The notes under the pieces were generated by a model that ran no database searches, had not been told where the DNA came from, and saw nothing but the letters and a program-made list of their open reading frames with translations. The translations under genes and the position numbers were made by a program. From positions 1,529,696-1,593,695 of the forward strand of contig NHZP01000010.1 in the NCBI GenBank assembly GCA_003313425.1: a DNA stretch of 64,000 bases. The letters run 5' to 3'. Shown here piece by piece: positions 12,617-64,000 of this stretch. This DNA is from Pseudopyrenochaeta lycopersici. Lineage: Eukaryota > Ascomycota > Dothideomycetes > Pleosporales > Pseudopyrenochaetaceae. Numbering within the stretch: the stretch's first letter is position 1; each line of letters begins with the position of its first letter.

Positions 12617-14097
12617 GGTTGAAGTACAATGTTTGCAGTCGGGGGTAGGCGGCTCAGTAGTCAAATAGACGTGAACGTGCATCACTGGCTAAAAGAATCT
12701 GTCAACTATATTGTAGATATTCGCTTCTGCATATGACTTGCATTCAACTGCTAGAAATGCATTTTCAAATATTTAGGCTGAGAGACTTATCGCGTTGGAA
12801 TCATGGTATTAGCACACAAGTCCAGTTTCTCAGTATCTCGTTCATAAATACTTAGATGTGCTCGAAGAGGACATGGCTGCTTTAGTGCAATCTGAAAGCC
12901 GTACTTGTAAATCACATAGCGCGCAAATTAAGGCCATCCACTCGTATCTAGCTCTATGTACTAATAATAGCCCGACTACTAGCTATTCGAACTATACACA
13001 GGAACTTTGCACGGTACTACTAGAAGTTTAAGCACTCGGACGCCAATCTATGATTCAAGTGCGGCCGGGCCAAGGTACTAGAGCACATCGTCCTCATTCA
13101 TGGCATTCAGTAAATGGCCGCGCCGACCAATCACCTATCCAACAAATCAGATAGAGAGGATTAGGGATCTAGCTGAGCTGGTACTACAACCACATGTCGC
13201 TGCTCGAGCTAATAGAATTCTACCCCAAAATCTGCACAAGGTAGCACACAAAGTCTTTGCAATCCTAGACACAGCAGTAGGCAGCCGCAAGTGACTGCCT
13301 AGACTTCTCGCTAAATCAGCGCACCTACTGCTATTGAACCCGCTAGGTGTCCTGGAATTCTACCGCATAGTAAAGGGGCCGCTGCGAAGGCTACCGTACC
13401 CACAAAATCAATGAATCATCGTCTCTTCTCCCCGTCCCCCGTCTCCACCCCTTCCCTCCTATGAGCCAAGAGCTCCTATATACGAAAAAAGGGAAAGCCT
13501 ATACGAAGCAACAACTAGCGATATTCACCCGGCGGGATACATAGCACAAAAGGGCACTGTTGCTATGCTAAACTAGGACTAAAATATCAAAATTTAGGCC
13601 TAAATTAATAATGCCGTGCGAGTAATAAGCATTGAGGTTTCGTAACGTTCCCTTTACGAAGAACCGAAAGTTTCGGCATGTGGGGCAATCAATTCTGACG
13701 ATCGAGAGTGGAGATTTCGGACATGCCCCTCCATCGGAAATGCTCCTCTACTAGCTTAGCCTGCACCGACCAAATATTTCGGTTCCTGCTTTGGCTCATC
13801 GCGAATTCCCCTTCAAAGAGGAGGGTCTAATAATCAAACTAACACTTTAGTGGATAGCGATACTCCTAACAATAGTGTCGAATATGGTTCACGTTATCGC
13901 TTCTGAAGCTGTGCGACTTCCAGATCGATCCCTAGCCTGCAAATCCACATGCATCTACTACCTGCACATTCTTGACGATTAGAGTATATATTTTCCATAT
14001 AACTGACATTCCCTACTGGAATCTTCAACTCAATTTCACATATCAACCAAGAAGCTATAAGATATCCATTTCAAGATCTCCACGAACTATTTTTAAC
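12617..14097. other. Intergenic, no supported gene
   Basis: About 1.5 kb. The 64-aa ORF at 13100-13294 has no recognisable domain. The region 13600-13800 holds several TTTCGG/CCGAAA motifs, including a CGAAAGTTTCG palindrome near 13668. A TATA-like stretch is at about 13984 upstream of the next gene. Confidence 0.5.
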
Positions 14098-15060
14098 ATG
14101 CCTTTCAAAATCGACCCAGAGTTCGCAGAGGCAACCGAGCCTATTGCTCGGATCCTCGCCTCAGCCACGAAGGCTCCTGCCTTCGATGTTGAATCTAGAG
14201 TCCAGGGCATGGCAGCACTTGGGTCTATGGCTCCTCCACAGCCATTAGCCCAAGGAGTCGAAGCCACCGAATATTGGTTTTCTTCGGGCGATGGTACATC
14301 AATCAGACTGCAGCGTCTATCTCCAGTTGTAGGAGAACAGGCGGGTGAAGCGGGGCCTTGTATAGTGCATTTCCATGGTGGTGGCTACTTCGGTGGGACC
14401 GTCGAGATGGTAACCCCATCTCTTTCCTATTTAGTCGCTGCAACTGGTGTGAAACTATTCTCCGTGGATTATCGACTTGCTCCCGTGCACCAACATCCAG
14501 TTCCCGTGGAGGATTGTTACGCAGCCTTAACTTGGGTGCTACAAAATGCAAAAAAATTCAACATAGATCCCAGTCGAATTGCAGTTATGGGAGAGAGCTC
14601 TGGAGGCGGCCTTGCCGCTGGTACCGCACTGTTGGCTCGAGACCGTGGCCTAATGCCACCTCTCGCCAAGCAAATCCTTGTCTATCCTATGCTAGACGAC
14701 CGCTATGACCGAGATCTTAGCAGCATATCAAAATATGTTATTTGGGACAGCGATGATAATAAGACTGGCTGGAAAGCATTATTAGGAGAGAAGTTTGGTA
14801 CAAATGAGGTGCCAGTTTATGCTGCACCCGGCCGAGTAGAGAACGTTGATGGTCTACCGTCTACTTATATGGATTTGGGATCTCTTGATTTGTTCCTAGA
14901 AGCGGATCTCATCTATCTAACTAGACTCGCAGCTGCCAATATCGAGACAGAACTGCATGTGTACCCAGGTCTTCCTCATGCCTTTGAAGCTCTAGGCCCG
15001 GGGGTTCCAGCTACGATAAGAGCGTTTGAAAATCGAAAGCGCGCAATCCTAAGCTTGTGA
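14098..15060 (+). CDS. HSL-family alpha/beta hydrolase (esterase/lipase)
   Basis: 320 aa counted from the ATG at 14098 (MPFKIDPEF); the open frame extends upstream to 13972 but with no domain, and fungal homologues begin like this. The oxyanion-hole motif HGGG is at residues 93-96, the nucleophile S167 is in GESSGGG, the candidate acid is D264 in GSLDLFLEAD, and the histidine is H294 in GLPHAFE: a complete triad of the hormone-sensitive-lipase (GDSAG) esterases. No introns or signal peptide are seen, so it is likely cytosolic. It is the last normal-composition gene before the repeat block. Paired with a Baeyer-Villiger enzyme, an esterase of this type would hydrolyse the ester product, as in bacterial acetophenone catabolism; here that is inference. 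Confidence 0.92.
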   Translation: MPFKIDPEFAEATEPIARILASATKAPAFDVESRVQGMAALGSMAPPQPLAQGVEATEYWFSSGDGTSIRLQRLSPVVGEQAGEAGPCIVHFHGGGYFGGTVEMVTPSLSYLVAATGVKLFSVDYRLAPVHQHPVPVEDCYAALTWVLQNAKKFNIDPSRIAVMGESSGGGLAAGTALLARDRGLMPPLAKQILVYPMLDDRYDRDLSSISKYVIWDSDDNKTGWKALLGEKFGTNEVPVYAAPGRVENVDGLPSTYMDLGSLDLFLEADLIYLTRLAAANIETELHVYPGLPHAFEALGPGVPATIRAFENRKRAILSL

Positions 15061-39099: not shown

Positions 39100-42000
39100 A
39101 GTATTACTAGGCTCCTAACGCGTTCGCGCTACGGCACTAAAAGTTAGGCTGTACACAGATATAACACGATACCCTTACTAACTAGCGTTAGCGGAGCTAG
39201 AAACGTAATTAAAAGAATACGTTAATTAATATAGAGAGGAAAAGCAAACAGACCAACGGACGTGTTATATACAGCCTGCCTGTGTACCTCCTGCTCCTTA
39301 TACTATAGAGACATTCGCGCAGCTGTTTAAACACCTGCCTAAGCTTCAAGTAGTCGTCTATAAGCTATGTGCTAGCGCTATACTACTAGCGTAGGTTATT
39401 ACGCACCTTAAAGAGCGCTACCCTAAGGTAGCAGTCGCTACGCGGAAGCACCTAGCAGTAATTATGCATGCGCTGCCTAAGCTTGCGCAGGTTCTAGGAG
39501 ACGTTCGTGTGCTAAAGCTGGCTAAGGAGCCTATCGCTAGCCTTAAAATCTAAGAGGACGGGCTGGTATACTTGTTAGAGAGATGTTAGTATACCTGCAT
39601 CTTAGTGCAAGGCATACAGAAACACTGCAAGGATAAGTATAGCTAGGTAAACAAATAAAAGTAAGGGGGGGATATAAGGCAGAAGAGTAAGTATTTAAGT
39701 AACTAAATATAGCGAGACAGCTAATCCTCCTAGCGCCTGTTTAGAGCTGTTAGCTAGCCGGCGTATATTATAGTTAAGATAAGTGTTAGGGGTACGAACT
39801 AAGAAGACATCTCCTAGAGAGTTAAGGCAGATTACTAGTACTAGCGGGAGAAGTAAGCGGCAGCAGCAGCGTAAGAAAAGATCTAAGAGAGCGTCTATTC
39901 ATAAGCTAATCTGTAGCTAGCGTTAACTAAATAGGTTTCTTACTTAAAGCGCAGCCCTAGGGCAGCGCTTCTGCGCGCTAAACGGCTAGCAGGTAGAGAG
40001 GTAGATGCGCATAGTAAAGAAGAAGACGCATTAGATAACATAGGCTTACGCGATGTTTATAAAGCTATAGAGCGGCTAATATAGAAAGCCTTTAATAGTA
40101 GCTAGGCAGAGGTTATAGGCAGACTTACGCTAGAGATTATAGAGCGACGCGAGGCGGGCGCAGAGTTAAATAAGCGGCCCTTCTACGTAAGGCATTAAGT
40201 CCGCACGATTAAGAAGTACAGCTAGAAGCTAGTAAGCATCCTCTACTACTTGTAGCGCACAAATAGTTAAGCTAACTGGCCGCTATATAAGCTTACTAGC
40301 ACGTAAGACGCGCTTCTGTAGTTACTCTAGTAAATTACGCGCTCCGCTAACACTACAAAGAAGAGGCGGCTAGAAGAGCGATGTCTGCGTCTTTAGATCG
40401 CCCTGCTTAACTACACGCTGCTAGACGATAAGCATGAGAGCGTACTACTGAGCGGGGTAGCTGTCCTCAGCCTCAAGCCTAATTACTACAGCGGTGGGTA
40501 GGTTCTGGCGCACGAGTTCTCGCTAACACTATCTACTCTAATTACTACCTTAAAAGCGCTTATAGTGTATTATGCCTGCTGCTAGCAAGATAAAGCGCTT
40601 TAGAAAGACCCTAATACTACGCCTACTACCTATAAGCTAGTTAGGGATATAGCTAAACAGTTTATAACGCTGTCTAACTTTAAAGGCACGCCTAGTCTTA
40701 TAAATTAAATGCTGCGCTTGCGTACGCTAGCTAGAACACAGGCAGGGCGACGTAACGCTTCTGGCATCGTGTTATAGGATAGAGACTATCTTCTTATTAA
40801 CAAGCAGAGTTTTTTGCTAGCCAACCTCCAGTCTATAGTTAAGGGGCTGTGCGAGACGGCGCAAATATAGTTACTTAGGGACGTCCTACTCTTAGATCTA
40901 GACGACACGGACTGCGTGCGGCCTAGGAGTACTACGCTTCCAGAGGTGTCTGTAGATAAACTTATTAACTAGCTAGCTGAGCTAGCTACGGGCTAGAGCT
41001 TTCTAAAGCACCCTAGCAACTAACTAGATAGGTAGTAAGACTAGCTTCTAGACTAGGTATTAGAGGAGGCCCTGCTAAGGGAGAGATTTATCTGTAGGAT
41101 AGATAGTATGCAGTAGCTAGAGCAGACGCTATAGCGCGACGACGCTGTAGCTAGATACATAAAGGGTGTGCGTTAATTTAAAGAGAGCCTCTTTACCCTC
41201 GTGTACCTCTCTACTAGTGCACCCGCGCGCAGGACAGAGATTACCTTAATATAGTGCGAGAACAGCGCAGATAGGGCTAGGTGCTAAGGGGTGTTTATAG
41301 AAGGTAGTCTAGTATCCTTTACTACTACGTACTATAAGGGGTACAGCTTTAGTAAGCGTGTTAAGACTATCTACTACTACGTTCTCTAGGAGGTAAGTAA
41401 GCTAGTAGTATACTTTCTTAGGCTCGGCTAACTGTTTATAGACGATCTCTAGATGCTGCATAACAGCGTTGCCTACTCTACTACTTTCCTCTAGGAGCCA
41501 GAACTAGAGGAGCAGTAGGAGGATAAAAGCGACAGCGAAGAGAGCGACAACAGAGACGAGTACAGCGATGCTAACTATAAGAAGGTATAATTAGCTAACC
41601 TAGACGGGTACTAGAGTACTAATTGTATACGCTGCGTCTTACGCGAGCAGACCTTCTAGTACATAAGCGCCGCCCTTAGCACCTACGCCTAGCGGCATGC
41701 CTACCTGGCCATCTACTAAGAGCTAGCTAAAGATAGACAGGCACGCGACTAGCTAGAAGTGCTCTACTAGAATAAAGCGCCTATAATAAGCTATGCGCGA
41801 GCGTTATAGTTAGGTTATAGCCTTTAAACTAAGGAAGGTAACTACGGCCACTCTATAATAGAGTCTCCCTTTTAGACTATAGTTAAGCAGGAAGAGTTCT
41901 AGCGCGTAAGTATGGACTAGTATTACGTGCTGGAGTTTGCCTCCGCCTGGGAGGACGGCCTTATGCACCCTAGTGTCCGCGCGGAGATAATAGCGCAGCA

Positions 42001-43750
42001 AGAGAAGTAGGCGCTCTAGCGCTGGTTATCGCTCGCGATAGTAGACCTTAAGGTAGAGTTTAGGCGACTCGCTAGGCGGCTAGACGCTGAGTATTGTAGT
42101 AAGCAGGAAGAAGGCCTTAGGGCTGTAATACAGCGACGGCTACGCGTGCTGGTTGTGATAGCTACTAGCACAGGTAAGAGCATGCTGTTTATGCTGCCCG
42201 CGTCTATCTTACTGGGCGGCGTTACTATTATTATTACTCTGTTAAACGCCTTGCGAGACAATCTACAGGACTGCTGCGACCTGCTCAGTATTCCCTACGC
42301 TAAGTAGGACAGAAGAAGACCGCCTTACTAGGCTTAAATTGTGCTAGTTACTCTAGAGAGCGCGGTTACGAAGGGATTTAGTAGGTTTATTAATAAGAAG
42401 CGCATGCTATATTAGCTAGATCATATTATAATAGATGAGTGCTACGTGCTGCTAGAGTTAACAGAGGACTAGCAGCTAGACATCCTTAAGATAACGGAGA
42501 TAGTGGAGAAGGGGACGCAGGTTATCTACCTAACTATAACCTTACTGCTAACGCTGCAGCTCGCCTTCTTCTAGACTATAGGGCTTGATGCCTAGACTAT
42601 AACTATATACCGCAACGAACGCACTACGCGGGCGAATATTACGTACTAGGTGCTAGAGTATACACGAGGCACGCTAGATAAGGCACTTATTAAGCTTATA
42701 GCTGCGAAGAGGAGGAAGTACAGACTAAAGGCGCAGATTATTATCTATTATCTAATAGTAGATAAGACTAAGTAGCTTACGAAGCTTCTGTAGTGCTCTG
42801 CCTACTACTGCTAGATAGATATAGACGAGGAGAAGGCACGTATAGTGCGAAGCTTTACCTCAGGCGTAGAGAAGCTCTGCACAGCTACTAACATACTAGG
42901 CCTTAGGCTCGACGCTGCAGGCGTCTAGGTAGTAATCTACGTTGCTATGTGTCTCCTGTTACTCTAATATATGCAAGAGAGCGGCTAGGCTAGGCGAACA
43001 GGGCTAGGCAGTAAGTTAATTATTCTAAGAGTGTGCTATCTAACAAAAGAGGGGAGGGTAAAGAAGGCGCTTAGCTATAAGTTAGAGCGCCCTATAAAGG
43101 AGTTCCTAACTACTAAATTATACTAGAGAATTGCGATAGACAGGCATATAGACAGCAGATAGAATAGGTAGTAATGCGAGATAGGAGAGTTAAAGTGTAA
43201 TCTATGCGAGCAACACCCTTACAGTACTAAGCAGTAAGGCGTTGAAGAAGAGCGGGAAGAGCTAGAGGCGACGCATGCTAATACCGCAGCGGCTGCAGCA
43301 GAGGAGCAGCGCAGAGAGCTTAAGTAAGCTATAGCTATAGAAGAGCAGAGAATTAAGATCTAGCAGCAGCGAAGGATAGAGTAAGTAATATACGAGCTAG
43401 AGCGGCTAGAGCAGCACTTTTAGCGCTAGAGCAACGCGTGCGCTATCTGCATAGTTACTTAAGCGGACCCAGCGCGCCATAATTAGAAGGATTGTTTAAA
43501 GGCTAACAAAGCGCAGATTAAGTTAATAGAAGCTAAGGTTAAATCTATATACTATATAAAGTAGGAGAAGTATACACAGTGTTACTATTGCTAGGCGCCG
43601 TAAGCTATCTATAATAAGTAGGAGGAGATAAGTGTACAGGGTGCATTTAAGACATAAGGGATGGGTTTTCCTTACTAGTATAGCGGGGTGCTTTAGCAAG
43701 CAGTAGCTGCGCTGCTTACCTTTTAGTAACTAACGTGCACGCTATAGCTA
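39100..43750 (+). pseudogene. Telomere-linked helicase copy B, RIP-decayed
   Basis: Reading through stops gives the full TLH order. Around 41210 STSAPARRTEITLI (compare GGAPARATELVTV of copy D), near 41690 a WRH-like segment, then GYS..TKEGNYGHS at about 41820 (compare GHGSRMAGGIYGR of copy D). The helicase follows: Walker A ATSTGKSMLFMLPAS (42163), IIIDECYVLLE (42430; DECH became DECY), VIYLTITL (42520), TNILGLRLDA and MQESG.ARRTG (42970). A Cys-rich tail ends near 43640. The 3' flank resembles that of copy D. Confidence 0.82.
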
Positions 43751-51660: not shown

Positions 51661-52161
51661 GTGGGGATTTGCTAACCGCTTCTAACAGCAAAGACCGAAG
51701 GGATTAAGGTCGTTTTTGGGGTTAATCCCCTGAAAAACCCTAGCAGTTGGGGCCTTAATCCCTAAGGTCGATAATATCAATGGGATTAAGGTCTGAACTT
51801 GCGTGGATTGCGCTGCAACTTCACAGTCTAATGCATCTAACTCCGTTGCGTTGATTGAACCAACTTTCATGACGATTGGACAAGTATGTCGTGAGATATT
51901 TAATGAAAAGTGTAATGGTTTTCGTGGTTGTTAGGGTAGGCCGTGCGCGTTTGAGTTGAGTAACAATGCCAAGATTAGGGTTTCGAGACACCATACAAAG
52001 TGCCCGGGGGAGAGTCCGACAGCGTGATAGACAAGGCATCACAAAAAGAAAGTTCATTGAAGTACAGTAATTTCCGTTAGAACGACCGCGAGGATTGCAA
52101 CCATATAAGGAAGAGAAAGGGCAATTTTATAGAGTATATATTGTCTATGTAGATTAATACA
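51661..52161 (+). promoter_or_regulatory. Upstream region of intact TLH copy D
   Basis: 500 bp of undecayed sequence. GGGATTAAGGTC appears in direct (51699, 51781) and inverted (CCTTAATCCC, 51753) orientation, giving a clustered palindromic motif about 400 bp before the start codon: candidate regulatory sites. A TATATA stretch is at about 52134-52140. The + strand loses CpT dinucleotides from about 51866 onward, which may mark the transcription start zone. Confidence 0.4.
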
Positions 52162-55100
52162 ATGGAGCAGTTTACCAGCATTTTTGAGTATTTGCCAGCA
52201 CAGCGCATCGCCGTATGCAAGAGCCACCAACAGGGTGTTATTAAATCCCAGTTGAAGACCCATTTAGACACCAAGCATCAGGAATATGTTCGCAGGACAC
52301 GTTGGGAAATCGTCGAGGTAGTACAGGCAGAGGCATCATTGCAACAATGGGCCATGACCCAAGACGAGGTTGTTTACCCCAGCCCAGAGTCCAGCCCGTT
52401 GCCCCATTTGCCGGTGTACCACGACGGATTGCGTTGCCAGCAGTGCCCGTACGTTAATCGTAGCATCAAACGTATCCAAGAGCATTGTCGACAAGAGCAT
52501 GGTTGGAAGGGGGACAGTCGGCCGAAGCCAGGGCGTCCGTCAGGCACGCGAACCATGTGGGCAACCGTGTCATGCCAAAAGTTCCAAAACACCAGTAAGA
52601 TGGGCCGATTGTTTGAGGTCAGCGCAGCCACAGAGGCCCAGCACACAGGCGACGCGGACGTGGACGTAAGCCGGGCGATTGAGGAGTCGTTGGTCCAGGC
52701 CACAGCCCAGTTAGAGGAGTTGGAAGAGAAGAAGAATTCCACCATCCAAGCCAACGACGACCGGTACGATTTTAGCAAGTGGTTGGATCGAGCGGGTTGG
52801 GCCCGACATTTGAAAGGGTTGAAGCGTGATTGGTTGTTAACAATGGCGACAAAGCCCACGACCAAGGAGCGCGCATTGTACGAGGTATGTTGGGCAGCAC
52901 GCATGGTCATGTGGCGGGCACAGCAGGCGTCCAAGGCAAGTGTGGTCGGGTTACCAGCCATGATGTACATCAATCGGCGAGAGTTTGGTGGCAAGGGCAA
53001 CGAGAAGCCGTTCAATGCGCAGCAAACAGGAAAAACAATGGTCAGGTACAGCAATTGGTGGTTGGAGATTATTTCATACATTTGGCGGACCCACGAGTTG
53101 CCCGTTGTCAGCAGCCGCAACGACGACGTGGAGGTGGAAGGAAAGAGACCGCCGTATCACATCAGTGGCAGGCAGGATATGTGGTTGCAAAAGATCAAGA
53201 TGATCGTAGGGCGGGACCAGGAGGAGGATTGGTTTGAGGAGATGGAGTCGGACGGCGAGGGCGACGAGGAGAGGTTGGACGAGACGCAGGAGGAGGAATT
53301 AGAGGGCCATGTGTTGCAGTTCATGTTAGCATTGTTGGACCATTTTTTGGGCGACAGTGAGTACACGAGCGCGTTGATCAGTGGTATGGCCGTGTTGGGG
53401 ATCAGCGCCGAGGACGGTTGGTTGAGCCCGTTGGTATACACGCCCAAGCAGGCCGCCATCGTCAACACATCACGCATGTTGGTGTTGTACAAGTCGACCC
53501 AGTTGCGGCAGCAAGAAGTAGGCAAGTTAATGGCCGAGGGTTGGGGAGCAGAAGATGCAAAAGCCATGGCACCAAGCCATTTCCATTTGGTGCAGGAGAT
53601 GGCCCAGCGGTTTATGACGTTGACCGATTACAATGGCAAGCCAACGCCCATTGATTATATACAGCGGTTGAAGGCATTTGGATTCCACATCCGGTACAAC
53701 ACGAACGCAGAGGGAGTGGTCGATTGGAACGGCGATACGTTGTTGTACCGTAACATCCGGTTCAGCATGCCGCAAATGCGGTCGATGATCCACGGCACAA
53801 TGGCCAGCACACGACAACAGATTGTAAGGGATTTAATGTTGTTGCAGATAGACGACGAGGGCGCGATAGCCAAAGACACAACGGCGTTGCCAGTCATCGA
53901 TTGGGCAAGGTTGGTCGACAATGCAGCCGAGCAGCGGGTTGGGTGGAGTTTCATGGAAGACCCGCGCAACAAAAATGCCACAAGCGTAGATGATCCCAAG
54001 CAGTGGTTAGCGCAGCGGGTACAGAAGGAAAAGGCCATACAAAATAGTTTTATCGACGTTGAGGTGACACGGGCGGCGTTACCCAGAGGTGGAAGCGTGG
54101 TGTGGTTACGGGACCGCATACAGGCATACGGGCAAGCCATGAAAGAAGCCCGACACAAGTTGGCAGCGTTAGTCCATATGACAGGAGGTGCACCAGCGCG
54201 GGCGACGGAGTTGGTGACGGTCAAATACAAAAATAGCGCGAATGGTGACAGTCGAGGAATTTTTATCGAAGATGGGTTGGTAGTGTTTGTTACCAAATAT
54301 CACAAGAATATCGGACAGTCAGGCAACGGTAAAGTAATCCACCGATATTTACCACGCGAAGTAGGCGAATTAGTCGTTTATTATTTGTGGTTCGCCAGCC
54401 CGTTTTGGCACCAGATCGAGGGGGCGGTTCGTGGCAAGGCGGTAGACACGAGCGCATATATGTGGGAGCCCCAGCCGGAGCAGGGTTGGCAGAAACCCGA
54501 GAGGAAAAGAAGACGCGGTGCCGAGAGCGTCCAGTGCCGCAGCAAGAGCGCAAAGAGAGACAGCAGATGCCGCAGCGTCGGTCGAGCGAGCCAGGATTCG
54601 TGGGAAGAGGGGGCCGAGTCGGGTGACGATACAGAGCAACCAGACGACCAGCAGCGCCCCATAGAGTTGTGGAACACCAACCGGGTCAAGCACGCGATGC
54701 AGAAAGCATCGTTGCCGCATATGGGTGTCAAGTTAAATGTGCAGGCGTGGAGACATGGCACCAAGGCGATGTACCGTCGATACATTCACAACCGGGCCGC
54801 GGTCAAGGCATTTTTAGACGCCGACGAGGACAGTGACGGTTCAGAAAACGAAGATGAGTTTTTCGACATCCAGACAGGTCACGGCAGCCGCATGGCCGGC
54901 GGCATATACGGACGACCCGTCACGGAGGCCATGTTCAGCGTCGAGGCGAAGAGGGTCGGGTTACGTTTGGCCAGCATGGAGTGGCATGCGTTTTTGCAGA
55001 TTCCGTCCACCATGTCGATGAAACCGCGGAAAGGCACGCAGGCAGCAGCAGCCCGTAAAGAAGCAGTAGAGGAAGAATACCGTCGGTGGAAGATGATGCG

Positions 55101-56967
55101 GTTGGTGGACGTAGACGCCGAGTTGAAGAATTTGTTGGGGGACCAGGCCGAATTCCGCAGCGTCCAAAGGCCAGCCATCCAAGCGATTATGCAGCACAAG
55201 AGCCCAGTAGTAGCCATCATGGGCACAGGGGCCGGCAAGAGCGTGTTGTTCATGTTGCCAGCGTCGGTGTCCACCGGGGTGACGATCGTGATTGTTCCGT
55301 TGGTTGCATTGCGGTTCGACATGAAAGAGCGGTGCGAGCAGTTGGGCATTGTCAGTGCAGAATGGAACAGTCGACGGCCGCACGAGTCCGCGCAAGTCAT
55401 GTTTGTAACGCCCGAGGCAGCGGTGGGCGAGATGTTTGGCGATTACATCACCCGACAGCGGTTGATAGGACGTTTGGATCGGATTGTGGTGGACGAGTGT
55501 CATGCCGTATTAGATTCGTTGGACGGTTTCCGTAGCCGGATGTTGAAGTTGAGAAGTTTGGTTCGAGTGGAGACACAGATGGTGTATTTAACGGCGACAT
55601 TGCGGCCCAGCGAAGAGCAGCAGTTCATCGACGTGATGGGATTACCGTCCAAGAGGCAGTGCCAGTGGTTCCGCGGACAGACGACGCGTAAGAACATCCG
55701 ATATCGAGTACATGCGTACGACACAGCCGACGAGCAGCAAGCAGTCCAGCATTTGGTGGAGGATTTGAAGAATAAGTACCCGTTGCCCGGCCAGGTTGTT
55801 GTGTATTGCGGTTTAGTGAAGCGAACAAAAGACATGGCCAAGAAGTTAGGGGCCGTTTGTTACCATCGGGAAGTTGGCAGTATCGAAGAGAAGAAGGAGA
55901 TTGTCAAACAATTAACCAGTGGACAACAGCAGGTGTTCACAGCGACCAACGCGTTAGGGTTAGGGATCGATGCGCCGACGATCCGCGCGGTAGTTCACAT
56001 AGGCACAATCCGCAAGATGCGGCATTACGCACAAGAAAGTGGCCGGGCAGGGCGTGATGGTAAGCCGAGTGAGGCAATCATCATGCGAGGGTATCGGAAA
56101 ACACGACAAGGGAGGGTGTATGGTAAGTTTGGCAAGGACGTGGAGGCAGAGATGCAGGATTTGATTGCGGGAGAGGGGTGTATGCGGAAGGTGATTGACC
56201 AGGCGATGGATGGGGCGGATGGAGTGGATGGGGTGGACACGCGGTGGGAGTGCGAGGAGGATGAGGAGCGGTGTCAACGTTGCGCGAGGCCAGGGGTAGG
56301 GAGGGCGCAGGAAGAGGAGTGGGTGACAGCAGAAAAGATGGAGTTTGAGCAGCAGGGCAGGGGGCGGAAATGGTTGGCGGAGCAAGAGATGGAGCGGCAG
56401 TGCAGAGAAGCAGCAGAGGTGGAGGCATTGGTGGAGTTGATGGAGGAGTGGCGGGTAGGGTGTCAGTTGTGCCGGGCGTGGGGGGAAGATGGAAGGGGAC
56501 ATGAGTTGGAGGATTGCGTTCACGAGCAGGCGGAGAACGCGCGAGAAGGGTGCGAGAGGTTCCAGAAGGATTGGATTTATGTTAAGTTTTCATGTTGTTA
56601 TGATTGTAAATTGCCGCAGGCGTTATGCAGGAGTTTTGAGATGGATATCATGGATGGGGGGTACAGAAAAAAGGCAGGGAGAAGATGTCAGTACGAGGGC
56701 GTGTTGATGAAGACATTGGTAGTGGCGTTAATGCGGGAGGTGTTTAAGGTTCCGGAGTTTTTTCACGGGGCGATAAAAGAGGATGGGGTTGCGGGGGGGT
56801 TGGGGTTTGAGGAGGACGAGGAGGACGAGGAGGACGAGGACGAGGTTGTTGGGGGGACATTCCGGGCGATCGTGCAATGGGGGAGCGGGAGGAAGCGATG
56901 GGGAGGGATTGAAGGGAACAAGTTGAGTTGGATTATTGGGAGGATTGTTGGGTGTTTGAAGGGTTAG
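52162..56967 (+). CDS. Intact telomere-linked RecQ-type helicase with recombinase-like centre (TLH copy D)
   Basis: Intronless, 1601 aa. N-terminus: two zinc-finger-like segments, C19-H22-H34-H39 and C92/C95/H107/H112, like the OrsD/DUF3505-type head of fungal TLH proteins. Centre (about 670-920): R680 in APARATEL, a VTKYHK strand, WRH at 863-865, and GH at 906-907 with Y916, resembling the catalytic layout of tyrosine recombinases. Helicase: Walker A GTGAGKS at 1021-1027, DECH at 1111-1114, TAT at 1144-1146, QESGRAGRDG at 1291-1300. C-terminus: Cys pairs (CQRC, CQLC, CCYDC) and acidic runs. Such genes lie next to telomeres in many fungi; a role in telomere maintenance or survival is assumed from family. 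It is the only undamaged copy among four. Leu is encoded only by TTG/TTA, because + strand CpT is absent. Confidence 0.9.
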   Translation: MEQFTSIFEYLPAQRIAVCKSHQQGVIKSQLKTHLDTKHQEYVRRTRWEIVEVVQAEASLQQWAMTQDEVVYPSPESSPLPHLPVYHDGLRCQQCPYVNRSIKRIQEHCRQEHGWKGDSRPKPGRPSGTRTMWATVSCQKFQNTSKMGRLFEVSAATEAQHTGDADVDVSRAIEESLVQATAQLEELEEKKNSTIQANDDRYDFSKWLDRAGWARHLKGLKRDWLLTMATKPTTKERALYEVCWAARMVMWRAQQASKASVVGLPAMMYINRREFGGKGNEKPFNAQQTGKTMVRYSNWWLEIISYIWRTHELPVVSSRNDDVEVEGKRPPYHISGRQDMWLQKIKMIVGRDQEEDWFEEMESDGEGDEERLDETQEEELEGHVLQFMLALLDHFLGDSEYTSALISGMAVLGISAEDGWLSPLVYTPKQAAIVNTSRMLVLYKSTQLRQQEVGKLMAEGWGAEDAKAMAPSHFHLVQEMAQRFMTLTDYNGKPTPIDYIQRLKAFGFHIRYNTNAEGVVDWNGDTLLYRNIRFSMPQMRSMIHGTMASTRQQIVRDLMLLQIDDEGAIAKDTTALPVIDWARLVDNAAEQRVGWSFMEDPRNKNATSVDDPKQWLAQRVQKEKAIQNSFIDVEVTRAALPRGGSVVWLRDRIQAYGQAMKEARHKLAALVHMTGGAPARATELVTVKYKNSANGDSRGIFIEDGLVVFVTKYHKNIGQSGNGKVIHRYLPREVGELVVYYLWFASPFWHQIEGAVRGKAVDTSAYMWEPQPEQGWQKPERKRRRGAESVQCRSKSAKRDSRCRSVGRASQDSWEEGAESGDDTEQPDDQQRPIELWNTNRVKHAMQKASLPHMGVKLNVQAWRHGTKAMYRRYIHNRAAVKAFLDADEDSDGSENEDEFFDIQTGHGSRMAGGIYGRPVTEAMFSVEAKRVGLRLASMEWHAFLQIPSTMSMKPRKGTQAAAARKEAVEEEYRRWKMMRLVDVDAELKNLLGDQAEFRSVQRPAIQAIMQHKSPVVAIMGTGAGKSVLFMLPASVSTGVTIVIVPLVALRFDMKERCEQLGIVSAEWNSRRPHESAQVMFVTPEAAVGEMFGDYITRQRLIGRLDRIVVDECHAVLDSLDGFRSRMLKLRSLVRVETQMVYLTATLRPSEEQQFIDVMGLPSKRQCQWFRGQTTRKNIRYRVHAYDTADEQQAVQHLVEDLKNKYPLPGQVVVYCGLVKRTKDMAKKLGAVCYHREVGSIEEKKEIVKQLTSGQQQVFTATNALGLGIDAPTIRAVVHIGTIRKMRHYAQESGRAGRDGKPSEAIIMRGYRKTRQGRVYGKFGKDVEAEMQDLIAGEGCMRKVIDQAMDGADGVDGVDTRWECEEDEERCQRCARPGVGRAQEEEWVTAEKMEFEQQGRGRKWLAEQEMERQCREAAEVEALVELMEEWRVGCQLCRAWGEDGRGHELEDCVHEQAENAREGCERFQKDWIYVKFSCCYDCKLPQALCRSFEMDIMDGGYRKKAGRRCQYEGVLMKTLVVALMREVFKVPEFFHGAIKEDGVAGGLGFEEDEEDEEDEDEVVGGTFRAIVQWGSGRKRWGGIEGNKLSWIIGRIVGCLKG

Positions 56968-57109
56968 GGTCACGTGAGTGGCATGAGACCCCAGTGGGAT
57001 CCGGAGTGACATTTTCAAAACAGTACAGTATAACGTAATAGAGGCAGTAGCAGTACAGGGTTTGTAAGGGTGTAAGGAGTGTTTTTGATAGTTATTTGAT
57101 AAGAGTTGG

Positions 57110-57400
57110 GGTTAATGCCCGTACAATAATCCCAGGGAAGACGTAAACACCCGTACAAGAATTTGCAGGGGAGTAGAGGGAAGCCCGTACAAGGATTTAG
57201 GGGAGAAGGTAGATGTTCGTACAAGGATTGCAGAGAGAAGTGGGATGCCCGTATAAGAATTTACAGGAGAAGTTGGACGTCCGTACAAGGATTGTATGGA
57301 GTAGTTAAATAAGGGAGGGAGAGAGATTTGAAGAGTTGAATGAAGGGAGGGAAAGAGATTTAAAGGAGAGGAGGGGAATGCCCGTATAAGAATCCCAGGG
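57110..57400. repeat. CCCGTACAAGGAT minisatellite
   Basis: Seven or so degenerate units, 27-35 bp apart, of CCCGTACAAGGATT..AGGGGAGAAG, starting 150 bp after the TLH stop. Probably 3' untranslated sequence. Confidence 0.85.
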
Positions 57401-58030
57401 GAGAGGTAACCCGTCCGGTGCAGAACGCGGAGCGTAACAGAGGGATGGGGGTTTGGGCCCGTAAGGTGTCATAAGAAGAAAGGAGGGGAAAGAGGGAGAG
57501 AAGGGGTACCCGAACCCGAAGGGCAGAGGAAACCCGTAGGGTGTAATAGAAGGGGAGGCGTAAAAGGTAGGGTAAGTTCCGGCCCCAGCAGGGGCGGAAG
57601 TTACGGGCAACAAAGCGATATAAAAAACAGGGGTAAGTAAGGTAGGGTGGAGAGGGCAGCAAGGATGGAGGGCAAGAAAGGGTTGCAGAAGCAAGGTAAG
57701 AAGGTAGAGAGTGGGCGGACAGTAGGTAGACGTTAGGTGCAGGTAGGAGGAGTTCCGGCGCCGTCAGGGACGGAATTTGGGAGTAGTAAGGAATAGTAAA
57801 GTTCCGTTCGGGCCGGAACCGAAATCAGAAAGGTAGCCCCGACCCGTTCAGTAGTATGTTGTAGCCGTAGAGAAGAGGCCCGTAGAGAAGACGAACAAGG
57901 CAGGTAGCCAGTTAGTGTAAGAGGAAAGGAGAAGAAGAGGGGAAACCGTCCGGTGTAGGAGAAATGAAGGGTTAGGCGGTGAGCCCGTCCGTGCAGGAAA
58001 AGAAGCCGAACACAGCGGGTTGGTAAGGAT
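57401..58030. other. TLH 3' flank with dispersed hairpins
   Basis: Three hairpins with arms GTTCCG/CGGAA(C) at about 57576-57600, 57748-57776 and 57801-57820, and three CCGTCC(G)GTG motifs (57411, 57947, 57985). Matching sequence follows TLH copy B. No gene. Confidence 0.65.
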
Positions 58031-59810
58031 ATAAAGTAGAAAGAAGAGTTTGGATTATATTAGTAAAAGAAGGTTTAGGTTTTAAAGTAAGGCAGATTAG
58101 GAAAAAGTATAATGTTTTAATAAAGTAGATTGCAGGGGAAGAAGGCGAAGAAATGAGGATTAGGGTTTTAGAGGTAAAGAGAAGGTTAGAGTGGTAGGAA
58201 AGAGGTAAAGGGGAATGTTAAAAGCGAAAAAAAGGGAGAAGAGAGTTGTAGAGAAGAGAAAAGGGCGGTGAGAGTTGGGAGGACAGGTAAAGATGAAGTT
58301 AAAAAAGTTGTGAAAGGGAGGTAAGTAGAGAAAACAGGAGAAGGTAGAGAGAGTAGAGAAAGTAGAGTAGGAGAAAAGAGAAGAAGAGAAAGAAGAGAAA
58401 AGAAGAGTAAGATAAGAGTAAAAATAGAAGAAGGAAAGGGTAAAGTGGTAAAACGAGTTAGTTTGGTAAGAAAAGAAGAAAGGCAAAAAGGGTAAGAGTA
58501 AGTAGAAGAAAAGAGTAGTTTAGTAGTTAAAAGAGGGTTATAAAGAAAGAAGAGAGTAAGGGAGAGGTAGAGGGTAAGGGAGAAAGTAGAAGTGAGGGTT
58601 GTAGGGGCGTAGAAGGGTAGGGGAGAGGGTTAGAGTTAAAAGAAAGAGGTAAGGGGGAAGGTTAAAGAGAAGAAAAGAGAAGAAGAGGAGGAAAGAAAAG
58701 GTAGTAAGTGTTAGAAGAGGGGAAAGAGGTTGAGAGAGTGTAAGAGTAAGGGTTTGGAAGGTTAAAAGAGTTAGAGTCGTAGGAAAGGATAAGAAGGTAA
58801 GTTGAAAGAGAAAAAAGAGAAAAGAAAAAGAGTTGCAGGAAAGAGAAAAGAAGGTTAAAAGTAGAGGGAAAAGGGAAGGTAAGAGTTAGAAGGAGAAGTA
58901 GAGAGAAAGTAAAAGAAGTTTAACAAGGGAGGTAAGTTGTAAAAAGGAGAGAGTAGAGAAAGTAGAGTAGAGAAGAAGAGAAGAGGAAGGAAAAAAGTAA
59001 GTAGAGAGTAGGTGCAAGTGTGAGAGAGAAAGTAAAGAAAAGTAGAGGGGTAAAGTTGTAAAAGTCGTAGAAAAAAGAGAAAAGAAGAGTAAGAGAAGAG
59101 TAAAAAAAGGAGAAGGAAAAAGAGGAAAGAGTAAAAGGATAAGTTTAGTAAGAAAAGAGTAAATAGAAGAAAAGAGGGTTATGGTTTGAGAAGAGAGTAA
59201 GGGAGAGGGAGAGGGTAAAAAAAGAGAGGGTTATGGTTTTGAGAGAAAGAGAGTAAGGTTTAGAGAGGGAAAAGTAGGGAAAAGTAGAGAGTAGGGGAAA
59301 AGGAGTAAGTTAAAGAGAGAAGGTAAAAAGAAGTGTATAGTAAAGTAAAGGAGAAAAGAGAGAAGAGTAAAAAAAAAGTAGAAATAGAGAAGGGTTAGTT
59401 TAAGAGAGAAAGAGTTTAAAAAGAGAAGAGAGTTTTGTTAGATAGAAAAGGGAGAAGGAGGATAGAAGTGGGAGTAAAGGGTAGGAAAGAGAGGAGAAAG
59501 AAAGAGAGTAGAGGGTGAGGGAGAGTAAGAGTAAGGGTGAGGGAGAGTAAGAGTGAGGGTGAGGGAGAGTAAGAGTGAGGGTGAGGGAGGAGGAGAGGGT
59601 TAGGGTTTTAGAAGAAGGAGAGGGTTAAGGTTTTAAGAGAAGTAAGGGAAAGGGGTTAGAGAGAGGGAGAGAGAAGTTAAATAGTAGAAAGAAGAGTAAA
59701 AAAAGGATGAGGAAAAAGTAAGGTGTTTAGAGAAAGTAAGGTAGTAAGGAAAGAGTAAAGAAAGAGAAGAAAAAGAAGGGTTAGTTTTTTAAGAAAGGAG
59801 GGAGAGAGTA

Positions 59811-59907
59811 GAAGTTGGGAGAGAGTAGAAGTTAGGAGAGAGTAGAAGTTAGGAGAGAGTAGAAGTTGGGAGAGAGTAGAAGTTGGGAGAGAGTAGAAGT
59901 TGGGAGA
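59811..59907 (+). repeat. 17-bp tandem repeat
   Basis: Six units of GAGAGAGTAGAAGTT(G/A)G. Confidence 0.95.
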
Positions 59908-59933
59908 GTTGGGGTTGTAGAAGTAAAAGGCAG

Positions 59934-59938
<5 letters not shown>

Positions 59939-59990
<52 letters not shown>
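59939..59990 (+). repeat. GAA microsatellite
   Basis: About 17 perfect AGA/GAA triplets. Confidence 0.95.
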
Positions 59991-59993
<3 letters not shown>

Positions 59994-61249
59994 GGAGAGA
60001 GTGTAAGGGAAGAGAGGTAAACAGGCGGAAAAGTAGAGGTTTAAGAAGAGTAGGAAAAGAAAAGAGAGGTAGGAGTTAGGAGTAAAGAGTAGAGGAGAGA
60101 AAGTAGAAGTAAAGGGATGTAGGGGTTGAGAAGGGTTAGAGTAGTAAGAAAGGCAGGGAAAGAGTAAAAGGGGGAAGAAAGTGTAAGGGAGAGGGTTAGA
60201 GTTGTAGGAAAGGTTAAGGGGGTTAGTTAAAAAAGAGAAAAGAAGAGTAAAAGTAGAGGAAAAAGGGAAGGTAATAGTTAGAAGAAGAGGTAGAGAAAAA
60301 GTAAAAGAAGTTTAGAAAGGAAGGTAGGTTATAAAAAGAAGAGAGTAGAGAGTATGTAGAAGTGTGAAAAAATAAGTAAAGAAAAGTAGGAGGAAAAAAA
60401 AAGTAGAGAGGTAAAGTTGTAAAGGTAGTAGGAAAAAGAGTAAAAAGAAGAAAAGAAGAAAAGAGGAAAGTAAGTAAAAAAGAAAAGAAAAAAGTTGAGG
60501 AAGAGAAGAGGAGGTGGAAGAAAAGGGTTGTTAAGAAGTAAAAGGGAGAGTTAAAAAGGAAGAAAAGAGTAAGGAAGAGAGGGAGAGGTTAAAAGGAGTA
60601 AGAGTGTAGTAGAGTAAGAAAGGGAGGGTTAGGGTTGTAAGAAGAGAGAAGTTTAAGTTTAAGGTAAAGGAAGGAGTTATAGAGAAGAAGGAGAGGGGGG
60701 AGGAAGGAGAAGAAAAGGGTAAAGAGTAGGAAAGAGAGGGTAAGCAAGTAAGGTAAGGTGTAAAGAGTTGGAAGTAGGGGTAAAGAAAAAGAGGGGAGGT
60801 AAAAGGTAAGAAAGAGAGGTAAAAGAGAGGGGGGGAGTTAGGTAGTAGAGGAGAGGAGTAAAAGAGAGAAAAGGGTAAAAAAAGAAGGGGTTGTAGTAGA
60901 GTTAAAAGGGAGTTAAAGGTGTAGGAGAAGTAGGTGTGAAGTTAGAAGAGTAGTAAAGGGTTAAGAAAGAAGGTAGTGAGGGTAGGAGAAAGGAAAAGAG
61001 GGAGAGGGTTAGGGTTTTAGAGGAGGAGAGGGTTAGGGTTTTAGAGGAGGAAAGGGTTAGGGTTTTAAGAGAAAGAGAGTAGGGGAAAAAGAGAGAGGTA
61101 AAGAGAGAAAGTAGAAGAAAAGAAGAGTAGAGTAAAGTAAAGAAGAGAAGAAAGGATAAGAGTAAGGAAAAAAGTAGAAGAAGTAAAGAAAAAGAGAAGA
61201 GAGTTTTGTTAGAAAGGTAGAAGGAAGAGTAAAGAGTAGGAAAGGGAGG

Positions 61250-61730
61250 GAGAAAGAAAGAGGGAGAGGGTAAGGGTAAGGATGAGGGAGAGTAAGAGAG
61301 AGGTAGAGGGTGAGGGAGAGTAAGAGTGAGGGTAAGAGAGAGGGTAAGGGAGAGGTAGAGGGTGAGGGAGAGTAAGGGTAAGGGAGAGGGAGGGTAAGGG
61401 TAAGGGAGAGGGAGAGTAAGAGTAAGGGTAAGAGTGAGGGGGAGTGAGGGTGAGGGAGAGGTAGAGGGTGAGGGAGAGGGAGGGTAAGGGAGAGGGAAGG
61501 TAAGAGTAAGGGTGAGGGAGAGTAAGAGTAAGGGTAAGGGAGAGGGAGAGGGAGGGTAAGGGTAAGGGTAAGAGAGAGGTAGAGGGTAAGGGAGAGTGAG
61601 AGTAAGGGAGAGGGAGGGTAAGGGTAAGGGTTAGGGTTTTGAGAGAGAGAGAGGGTTAGGGTTTTAAGAGAGAGAGAGGGTTAGGGTTTTAAGAGAAAGA
61701 GAGGGTTAGGGTTTTGAGAGAAAGGTAGAG
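61250..61730 (+). repeat. Degenerate telomere-like repeats
   Basis: First GGGTAAGGG / GAGGGAGAG units, then (61625-61720) four copies of a ~32-bp unit carrying GGGTTAGGGTTTT. Shorter clusters of the same unit are at 59590-59640 and 61007-61070. They look like variant telomere sequence mixed with purine-rich spacer. Confidence 0.8.
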
Positions 61731-61963
61731 AGTAGTAAAGTAAGAGAAGAAGAAGGGGAGGAGAGGAAGGAGTAAGAAGAGTTAAGAAGAGAGTAGTTAA
61801 GTAGGTGGAAGTAGAGGGAGTTAGAGAGGTTTAGGGGTTTAGAAGAAAGAGAGGTAAAGTAAAGGGAAGTTTTTTGGAGGGAGGGTGTTTAAAAGAGTTT
61901 AAAAGGGTGAAAAGAGTGAAAAGGAGGTAGAAGAGAGAAGGGGGAGGGGTGTTGGGGGGTGGA

Positions 61964-61983
61964 TTAGGGTTAGGGTTAGGGTT
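61964..61983 (+). repeat. Internal telomere repeat (TTAGGG)3
   Basis: Three exact TTAGGG units plus TT, on the + strand, so the chromosome end lies to the right. Non-telomeric DNA continues directly after it. Confidence 0.97.
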
Positions 61984-62213
61984 CCTTTCACTAGAAAGTT
62001 GTCAAGTGGTCAGGAGCCTTGCGCTTCTGATCCTAGACACTTTACACGTATGCGTTGCCTACGACTGGAGGGAGTAGCGAAGCGTTAGTCTCTTTAGAGG
62101 CTAGGGGCAATGCACGCTTAAGTAACCCGGCGCACGGACGTAGCGCGAGATCATCTGATCTCCGGGTTGCCACATTTTTTTGGTCTCTGACCTAATTGGC
62201 CTGTGGATGCAGG
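61982..62213 (+). repeat. Structured repeat copy 1 (RNA-like fold)
   Basis: Shares long identical blocks with copy 2 (63581-63821), separated by diverged parts that still pair. Helices here: CTTTC/GAAAG; AAGTG/CACTT (62004, 62038) enclosing AGGAGC/GCTTCT; TGCGTTGCC/GGCAATGCA (62051, 62106) enclosing AGTCTC/GAGGCT (62087, 62097); AACCCG/CGGGTT (62124, 62163) enclosing GCGC/GCGC and AGATC/GATCT; GGTC/GACC (62182, 62189). Begins directly at the telomere repeats. Whether it acts as RNA is inference. Confidence 0.75.
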
Positions 62214-62307
62214 GATGCACGGAGGTGATGTAGGTGCGCGATTGGGTTGGGAGCGTTGGTTTACTTGTGCACGGACGTGTCACTGCGGCGCGGCTGTCTG
62301 CGCGTTG

Positions 62308-62314
62308 TATAAAT
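62308..62314 (+). promoter_or_regulatory. TATA box
   Basis: TATAAAT, 81 bp before the chosen ATG at 62389. The leader that follows can form a hairpin (GGTGC...GCACC around CCACG/CGTGG, 62316-62345). Confidence 0.5.
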
Positions 62315-62388
62315 GGTGCTCGTTCCCACGGGTCTCGTGGCACCGGAGGTTCTTCTTTTCCTCACTCTTTGAGTGTGCCTTATTATGG

Positions 62389-63268
62389 ATGCACGATGGA
62401 ATGTCTGCACACTTGTTTTCGAGTCAGGGAGCTGACGGACGGTGGAGCTCTATGTTTACGTCTTGTTTGCAAGGTGGGGCGTTGTACGCTGCTACTGTCG
62501 TTGCTGCTGGGACAGCTTTACTTGGGAAGCGGAGGCGTAAGCCCGGTAGTGATCCGGGTCTCTCCAGAGTAGGTCTCTGTTTGGCGCTTGTGTAGCATGA
62601 TAATGCTGACTCCTTCGTTTTTGCAGGTTCCGAAGGTACAGAAGGTCGATAAATTGCTCGAAGGGCCCGCGAAGTGGTTCCTAGAACGTCTGTCAACTAT
62701 ATCCACGAAGTGGGGGTTTCTTAGATCTTGTGGGAGCGAAGAAGTCGCTTTGGTGGAGAGCTTTTTACGTGCCAAGGTGGACCTTGCAGAGTATAACGTG
62801 GTGCGAAATTTAGAAGGCCTGTCTGCTCCCTCTGTTATGGGAAGCCTCATGTATGGAGCGGATACACTGAGATGTTATCCCTCTGTATTCACGGGGGAGT
62901 ACCCGCCGTTGAGTGTCGGCGATGGTTGCGGGCCCAGTGAATGCTGCCTCTATGGATATTGTGGAAACCCCGGACTGTCCGGTTTTGGATCCGGTGGTGG
63001 TGGATGCGCTTATGTCGACCCTGCTTGGCTGGAGCCCCCGGAAGGGTTTTGTTGTTATGCTAGTAGTTTTGTACTTCCTGGCCACTCTGACAGTGTGGCT
63101 TCTGATTACGATTCCGCTGATTGGATGTCATTAGCACCAGAACCCTTTAACAGCGATGAAGGAGAGGGTGGTCTTGGTCTTGTAGAGATGGAGGACTGGG
63201 AGCTGGGGGCTCTTACGGATGTGTTGTATGATCGTAGTGGGGATCTGTTGTTAGGGGAGTATTCGTAG
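62389..63268 (+). CDS. Hypothetical membrane-segment protein between structured repeats
   Basis: join(62389..62568, 62627..63268), 273 aa, not recognised. The intron 62569-62626 (58 bp) has GTAGGT at its 5' end, a GCTGAC branch-like site and TTTTTGCAG at its 3' end, and the frame is open across it. Residues about 31-47 form a hydrophobic helix (GGALYAATVVAAGTALL) followed by basic KRRRK, as in a membrane anchor. The middle (KVDKLLEGPAKWFLERL) looks amphipathic; the C-terminus is Gly- and acid-rich. The first ATG after the TATA box was chosen as start. Another frame (62913-63134) has an even stronger membrane-like segment, so a different splice form is possible. It sits in a 1.6-kb unit between two copies of the structured repeat. 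Confidence 0.5.
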
Positions 63269-63580
63269 GTATGGAATTATTGTAGGGTATGTCTATTTTA
63301 TGGTTGACTTATTGTGCAGTTGGTCTACCATTGTGTACGATCTGTTTTGATGGACTGGATTATGTAGAATACCTATGTTGTATTCGCAAGATTTTTCATT
63401 TTGGGTGTGAGCGCCCTTGGATGGAACACCATCTCCAAAAGAAAAAAAAAATGCATAAGTCCATTTTTGCTGTGGCTGGGGGGGCACGCCGAGTCAGGTT
63501 GGCTGTGGCTCGGGAGAGTCAGCTGTGGCGCGGATTCTGCGCGCACAGACCAGAAATCAACTTTCGAGTGCTATATATGA

Positions 63581-63821
63581 TTCCTTTCACTAGAAAGTTG
63601 TCAAGTGGTCAGGAGCCTTGCGCTCCTTACCCTTGCCACTTTACAATTAAGCAGGGCCGGCGAGTGGAACGAGTAGCGAAGCGGTAGTCTTGAATAAGAC
63701 TAGGGGCCTCTGCACTTAGTAAGCAACACAGCGCACGGACGTAGCGCGAGATCATCTGATCTGTGGGTTGCCACATTCTTCAGATTTTTTATCTGATTGG
63801 TCTATGGATATGGAGGCAGGG
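63581..63821 (+). repeat. Structured repeat copy 2 (RNA-like fold)
   Basis: Helices matching copy 1 with changed sequence: AAGTGG/CCACTT (63603, 63636) around AGGAGC/GCTCCT; GCAGGGCC/GGCC-T-CTGC (63651, 63705) around AGTCTT/AAGACT (63686, 63696); GCAAC/GTTGC around the invariant GCGC and AGATC hairpins; CAGAT/ATCTG (63781, 63791). Invariant blocks include GAGTAGCGAAGCG and GCGCACGGACGTAGCGCGAG. Confidence 0.75.
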
Positions 63822-64000
63822 AGTGTGCAGGACCCTGCTAACTAGGACTAACACATCTTGGCGGGGCAAGGGTCTGGGAGACAGATTGAGATATATAAGA
63901 GAGGGGAGCGCCCTCCTATCTCTAATATCAACGGAGGTGTGCTTTGTTCGGTTCAGTTGTAGTCACTACATAGTGAACGTATTGTACGTAAGTAGTAGCG
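63822..64000 (+). promoter_or_regulatory. Likely promoter of a further unit
   Basis: TATATAAG at 63892-63899 lies about 70 bp after structured copy 2, mirroring the TATA box that follows copy 1. A small GAGGG/CCCTC hairpin follows. Cut by the window end. Confidence 0.4.

Follow-up and report, generated by a model that had tools for sequence, protein, structure and literature searches.

The fungal literature on telomere-linked helicase (TLH) genes (PMC12857005, on TLH regions of Fusarium oxysporum; PMC8381367) provides the closest described counterpart of a helicase unit found in Pseudopyrenochaeta lycopersici, within a stretch of 64,000 nucleotides ("the window"; contig NHZP01000010.1, positions 1,529,696 to 1,593,695). 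With the fungal TLHs, as portrayed in the accessible portion of PMC12857005, this unit shares the helicase domains, the occurrence of many near-identical copies near contig ends that point toward the telomere, tandem repeats upstream and telomere repeats alongside, whereas a strand free of the dinucleotide CT is not mentioned in that portion. Such a strand distinguishes the TLH copy of the window (copy D) and its 3' flank, which are organized as follows (o/e, observed/expected).

51682–51865, + strand: putative promoter at the conserved 5' end of the unit, CT normal; homology among copies begins at 51682
51866–52161, + strand: CT-free leader, putative 5' untranslated region; 1 CT (52145), 11.1 expected
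52162–56967, + strand: intact open reading frame (ORF) of a 1601-aa telomere-linked RecQ-type helicase; 0 CT, 185 expected; PF00270, PF00271, PF12013
56968–57999, + strand: C-containing 3' flank; 0 CT, 24.5 expected (counted over 56965–57999); CC o/e 2.68
58000–61955, + strand: purine-rich, almost C-free and AT-poor flank; 25 C in 3955 bp, 0 CT, AT o/e 0.13
61956–61984, + strand: interstitial TTAGGG tract, identified by its sequence, right border of the CT-free domain; satellite from 61985
61985–64000, + strand: subtelomeric tandem satellite with a unit of about 1.6 kb, outside the domain; CT normal

CT content and borders of the domain

Between 51866 and 61983, the + strand holds a single CT, at 52145, where the original prediction had expected hundreds by chance. 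Indeed, the product expectation is 207, and 233.9 CT are expected from the probability of T after a base other than C (0.199) and the 1174 C present (binomial log10 p = -110.8), while 500 block shuffles of the domain gave a mean of 223 and a minimum of 194; most expected values reported here take base composition as sole assumption. AG on the same strand is not depleted (1619 versus 1265 expected), hence the loss is one-stranded, as had been claimed. As C is nearly absent from 58000 onward, the statistical weight rests in 51866–58000, that is, in the leader, the ORF and the first kb of the 3' flank. Within the ORF, at a C content of 20%, the zero count extends over all three codon phases, and codon shuffles yielded 64.5 CT at codon boundaries (minimum 48 in 1000). 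The 104 Leu residues of D are encoded by 77 TTG and 27 TTA and by no CTN codon, and GCT, ACT, CCT and TCT are all absent, so that the predicted codon usage was borne out by the codon count.

A dinucleotide scan in 2-kb windows outside the domain revealed nothing comparable, the strongest depletion being that of TG (o/e 0.12) in DNA affected by repeat-induced point mutation (RIP). CT is normal in positions 1–15000 of the window and in five paralogous TLH stretches; hence, a general CT bias of the genome was rejected within the sequence examined. Likewise, an assembly or base-calling artefact was rejected, as 0 sense CT were found in 23 of 23 un-RIPed family stretches, located on many contigs, and as conserved Ala and Pro at xCT codons of paralogues, as well as Leu, are spelled with other codons in D.

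The left border is sharp: it falls within the conserved unit, directly after CAACTTTC and about 297 bp upstream of the start codon. Upstream of it, 12–13 CT are present in the 184 bp from 51682 to 51865 (10.9 expected), a putative promoter with inverted repeats at 51693–51769 and 51745–51799; the sequence common to the family copies starts at 51682 and is preceded by variable tandem repeats. Among the copies read at their 5' end, the upstream CTs end 295–298 bp before the ATG, followed by one at -17, while three copies (L025–L027) possess a CT at -262 (51900) and none at -17 (52145). The ATG probe used for this border missed L010, L011 and L021, owing to one differing base, and the RIPed copy L028; the borders of the former three were judged from CT-free runs and the list of single-nucleotide polymorphisms (SNPs), and L030 begins within the leader. 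Position 51866 is perhaps the transcription start.

The 3' end of the unit was read for the window copy, the other loci extending at most 1.5 kb past the stop codon; up to there, they are CT-free as well, except for position 57813 in L017, L018 and L021. The right end does coincide with a border between telomere and other repeats at which CT returns (139 CT versus 116.5 expected in 61985–64000). However, what had been taken for the last telomere repeat is an interstitial tract followed by the satellite of about 1.6-kb units, not the chromosome end. This satellite, distal to the unit, has many matches on contigs C61, C65, C81 and C101. Judged by coordinates, the distance from TLH to satellite is about 5.0 kb on contig C92 as well, hence the unit from TLH to satellite may be constant.

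Besides C, also AT is strongly depleted on the + strand of 58000–61954 (36 versus about 267, with o/e 0.08–0.12 in 2-kb windows). Between 58 and 62 kb, 94% of the 598 T follow G or T, like in TTAGGG, and several 24–25-bp repeats contain GGGTTAGGG. The flank from 58000 to 61954 may have descended from telomere-like repeats. Elsewhere in the window, a carotenoid oxygenase with 83% identity to one of Paraphoma chrysanthemicola is encoded.

The TLH family, its RIPed copies and a second CT-free flank

The protein encoded by D shows the domains PF00270 (DEAD, E 1.7e-17) and PF00271 (Helicase_C, E 6.7e-12) and an N-terminal OrsD-type domain (PF12013), and is related to fungal RecQ-like helicases, with the matches named as TLH coming mostly from Pleosporales (Parastagonospora, Paraphaeosphaeria, Pyrenophora, Alternaria, and Bipolaris). 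By homology and position, D is a TLH, with predicted helicase activity and telomere role. Searching the genome (62.7 Mb, 188 contigs) with the protein gave at least 33 matches, from which 30 loci were counted, three matches without locus being left uncounted. The un-RIPed family comprises 23 stretches, corresponding to about 21 gene copies (two are split in two), and not one of them has a sense CT; thus, the absence noticed in the window is a property of the other un-RIPed TLH copies of this type as well. Most copies are found less than 20 kb from a contig end, which is not necessarily a chromosome end, and D itself abuts the TTAGGG tract and the satellite. More than 10 copies, several kb long and nearly 100% identical, are un-RIPed despite the RIP signatures in this genome. 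In L025, L026 and L027 (contigs C28, C56, and C170), the helicase is truncated at the same base by an identical unrelated insertion, which follows position 56495 and has ordinary CT. Upstream of another copy, a weaker CT-poor stretch is present (L011:570–1019, 3 CT versus 12.7 expected).

Among the more distant TLH types of the genome, the paralogue L031 (47% identity at the amino acid level, no stops) shows 203 CT versus 197 expected. The corresponding values are 257/207 for L034, 127/98 for L036 and 123/98 for both L037 and L038; as these four carry some stops, part of their CT is possibly RIP-made. A protein query for orthologous DNA in viral and genome contig collections gave no loci, and from three alignment queries for related loci two gave none and the third four distant helicase loci with 27–31% identity. 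Among homologues known as protein only, exchanges of Leu to Pro, His, Gln or Arg account for 6–7% of the Leu changes in two TLH clusters, compared to 19% in the cluster containing L034, which is CT-normal, and 13% in that of D (with non-independent pairs); the two clusters with few such exchanges may avoid CTN, too.

Two copies of the family are RIPed, L024 with 51 CT and L028 with 95 CT. Relative to the window copy, they show C-to-T changes at CA (74 and 157, respectively) and CG (38 and 79), and G-to-A changes at TG (73 and 173) and CG (17 and 65). Their CTs are CTA or CTG in 51/51 and 94/95 cases, respectively, as RIP of CCA and CCG yields, which points to descent from a CT-free copy, with the RIP-made CTs not cleared afterwards. 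As these CTs are retained, removal of CT seems to end once the gene is dead. Upstream of the unit in the window, positions 15000–51000 represent RIPed subtelomeric DNA, with loss of CA/TG and gain of TA, and harbor an older TLH relic at 39305–43207.

A second case was found downstream of L031. In contrast to its ORF and 5' flank, which have ordinary CT, the 3' flank of this paralogue holds 1 CT in about 1393 bp (47 expected); the flank is partly a 19-bp repeat array, and its non-repeat part alone has 0 CT versus 22.1. The CT-free stretch begins within a perfect 15-bp hairpin (L031:1382–1414), about 40 bp past the stop (in flank numbering, stop at bases 43–45 and hairpin at 87–119). A palindrome at this position is kept in the window from 44117 on and, when aligned, in the flanks of L034, L036 and L037, all of them RIPed. 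Three RIPed relatives of the non-repeat flank (contigs C11, C1, and C50) are 83–88% identical to it, with differences mostly of the C/T and G/A type and 50 of their 53 CTs being CTA or CTG; hence, all four flanks look derived from a CT-free one. The picture is less clear for the RIPed flanks of L034, L036 and L037, where CTC or CTT make up 8/28, 6/28 and 6/21 of the CTs, respectively. The 3' flank of D has short blocks in common with the L031 flank (76–92% identity), and the CT-free 3' flank is thus probably older than the D family. A CT-free gene, on the other hand, is found in the D family alone among the TLH types read.

Replacement of CT and possible causes

In D, C before T has been replaced by G, A or T without an excess of T. 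Fourfold Val, Gly and Arg codons followed by T end in A 12, T 16 and G 42 times (n = 70), compared to C 80, T 49, A 57 and G 91 for the same codons elsewhere in the ORF. The 16/70 T agree with simple avoidance of C, which predicts 24.9% (p = 0.78), but conflict with conversion of C to T, which predicts 46.6% (p = 6e-5; with 40%, p = 0.003), and pyrimidines before T are not as frequent as in two paralogues (16/70 versus 41/90, p = 0.004). Conserved fourfold sites at which the paralogue has C before T show T in D in 1/11 (L031) and 1/9 (L034) cases, and changed fourfold C sites not before T in 12/37 and 1/16, respectively. After exclusion of conserved Leu (56 for L031, 49 for L034), the C of the paralogue CT steps corresponds to T in D in 27 of 84 (32%, L031) and 19 of 95 (20%, L034) cases; where the first base of CA, CC and CG has changed, it became T in 17, 28 and 29% (L031) and 15, 30 and 30% (L034), respectively. 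The CTA and CTG Leu codons of the paralogues are mostly TTA and TTG in D, as predicted by either conversion or avoidance. Aligned with L031, CTC corresponds to Phe in 0/25, CTT to Phe in 1/5 and GCT to Val in 0/15 cases, and the comparison suggests no clear amino acid load from CT loss on the D protein, with Ser shifted somewhat to AGY (56/82 versus 98/181, p = 0.03).

The loss from one strand with a sharp start, its extension over leader, ORF and flank, the replacement by any base, the spared protein and the lapse in dead copies together look like a rule imposed on a sense RNA. Purifying selection against CpU in a telomere-directed sense RNA is thus the favored explanation, with a probability of roughly 0.45. 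The TLH mRNA and the telomere-directed 3' flank would form one transcription unit, with a single RNA starting near 51866 and spanning the domain, and selection acting at the RNA level would keep it free of CpU. A cellular factor would recognize or cut CpU in TLH RNA, so that functional copies retain only CU-less sequence, a state that may have been reached through whichever base change was at hand. In the L031 type, the rule would cover the DNA downstream of the gene only, with the hairpin as putative start of the CU-free RNA, while in the D family the whole gene would have come under it. The left border, the + orientation and the extent of the domain would fit the putative transcript. Of the two causes offered by the original prediction, selection on a long RNA to avoid CU thus fits better, although it is unproven. 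A wider generalization, in which long telomere-directed RNA at fungal chromosome ends would exclude CpU absolutely through CpU-reading surveillance or decay and TLH units would have escaped by recoding the whole 10-kb RNA, is possible, though less probable.

Several points weigh against selection on RNA. Much would be asked of selection if it had to clear about 200 sites, including a flank of about 5 kb, from a gene present in many copies, and we know of no factor reading CpU. Since the CT-normal L031 ORF precedes its CT-free flank in the same orientation, this locus would require the assumption of two separate RNAs. In the alignment with the more distant L034, CTC corresponds to Phe in 2/33, CTT to Phe in 2/23 and GCT to Val in 2/27 cases, values lacking a background rate, and bulk composition shifts from L031 to D from 14.9 to 19.2% T and from 26.6 to 20.1% C. 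Moreover, about 13 point differences among un-RIPed copies were accepted as credible, after indels and the noise close to contig ends had been discarded by judgement. Twelve lie within the domain and 3/12 involve CT (51900, 52145, and 57813), compared to about 1.5 of 12 expected from the fraction of random point mutations creating CT (0.122). Hence, no purge of CT is visible among the copies on this short time scale, and the acting force either works slowly or leaves these three non-coding positions untouched.

Other constraints on the RNA were considered as well. The D ORF is less structured than 25 CT-free codon shuffles (-1232 versus -1288 ± 20 kcal/mol), but avoidance of RNA structure was rejected as cause since such a rule would not yield an absolute dinucleotide rule; avoidance of branch points or splice sites was set aside by argument alone, as it would not be absolute for a dinucleotide either. 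No Rfam match was obtained at gathering thresholds.

A possible, though less probable, alternative to selection on RNA is transcription-coupled damage, in which the displaced, G-rich non-template strand of active copies would be attacked at CpT and error-prone repair would drain CT by mutation. Strand and borders match a plausible transcript, RIP-made CTs persist in the RIPed, presumably silent copies, and the mixed outcome of T, A and G is as after uracil excision and bypass; moreover, strongly hypermutable CpT could, by an uncomputed estimate, still leave a few polymorphic CTs in young copies. However, the outcomes at CT resemble those at C in other contexts, the 1601 aa bear no clear footprint, TT at codon boundaries is not in excess (72 versus 74.8 in CT-free shuffles) and a candidate enzyme is lacking. 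For APOBEC_N (PF08210), the only deaminase family searched, no match was found in the genome, but none in control genomes either.

Plain deamination of CpT to TpT in the telomere G-strand, exposed as single-stranded DNA (ssDNA) by resection or break-induced replication, is improbable. A context-specific C loss restricted to one strand, which is one mark of an ssDNA cytosine deaminase, is present, the affected strand is the G-strand, the composition relative to L031 has shifted in the right direction (T up, C down) and Leu CTA/CTG have mostly become TTA/TTG. This cause, the other one originally offered, is nevertheless disfavored by the fourfold sites (16/70 T versus about 47% predicted) and by the absence of an Ala-to-Val or CTC-to-Phe footprint relative to L031. 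In addition, the left border is a fixed point without gradient, and CT is undepleted in the distal satellite and on the G-strand of each of three stretches, about 1.6 kb long, next to telomeres (L046, 80 versus 86; L066, 82 versus 84; L065, 15 versus 11), which also disfavors any general process acting on the telomere G-strand.

Hardly more can be said for an inherited composition, with the flank stemming from degenerate G-strand repeats of telomere type, devoid of CT from the outset, and the ORF representing a separate codon oddity. The near absence of C from 58 to 62 kb and the T neighbors and short repeats described above would agree with such an origin, but the ORF, with its 20% C, lacks CT in all three phases, far from the codon-shuffle values, and the C-containing flanks are CT-free as well (0/24.5 in D, 0/22.1 in L031). 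Finally, RIP can be dismissed, as already stated in the original prediction: although the genome has RIP and the TLH unit is a repeat, in the RIPed copies it targets CpA and CpG on both strands and hardly ever CpT (G-to-A at AG, i.e., CpT of the - strand, makes up 1/213 changes in L024 and 3/493 in L028, with AG, at 471, more frequent in the D ORF than TG at 337 and CG at 350), it breaks the ORF (27 and 64 stops, respectively) while that of D is intact with 1601 aa, and D shows no two-strand loss of CpA (CA o/e 1.58, TG 1.05).

Comparison with known systems

Avoidance of a cleavage site in RNA is known from bacterial MazF and ACA-less mRNAs, which lack the trinucleotide cut by this endoribonuclease. 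The TLH unit would resemble this system in cut-site avoidance, but the sequence avoided is a dinucleotide, the organism is a fungus and an identified CpU-specific enzyme is missing. At the DNA level, APOBEC/AID enzymes cause strand-coordinated deamination of ssDNA in R-loops or during break-induced replication, read the 5' neighbor and leave an excess of C-to-T changes. The one-strandedness is shared with the TLH unit, whereas here the 3' neighbor matters and an excess of T is not observed. RIP, in turn, is similar in producing dinucleotide-specific depletion in ascomycete repeats, yet it affects both strands, at CpA and CpG, and disrupts ORFs, in contrast to the loss of CpT from one strand of an intact gene. 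To our knowledge, the near-complete loss of one dinucleotide from one strand over 10 kb of nuclear DNA, coding as well as non-coding, is without precedent, and a literature search, in which subscription papers and preprints were thinly covered, did not reveal a comparable one-strand absence.

The CT-free unit would reflect one of two things, a so far undescribed mutagenic process coupled to transcription at the ends of chromosomes or, alternatively, fungal surveillance of RNA for a specific dinucleotide, and both readings bear on how telomere-linked genes remain active and intact despite RIP. For selection acting on RNA, a close parallel is the suppression of CpG in viral RNA by ZAP/KHNYN, as outlined in the accessible part of PMC12709174, and dinucleotide-reading systems are also represented by RNase MC1 and cusativin (PMC9266746, likewise seen in part). 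If CpU is indeed selected against, the TLH unit would share with the ZAP/KHNYN case a dinucleotide counterselected in RNA, while differing in the dinucleotide concerned, in the fungal nuclear gene affected, in the totality of the depletion and in a reader that is putative only. CpU exclusion would then be the counterpart of CpG suppression in viruses, but nuclear and self-encoded.

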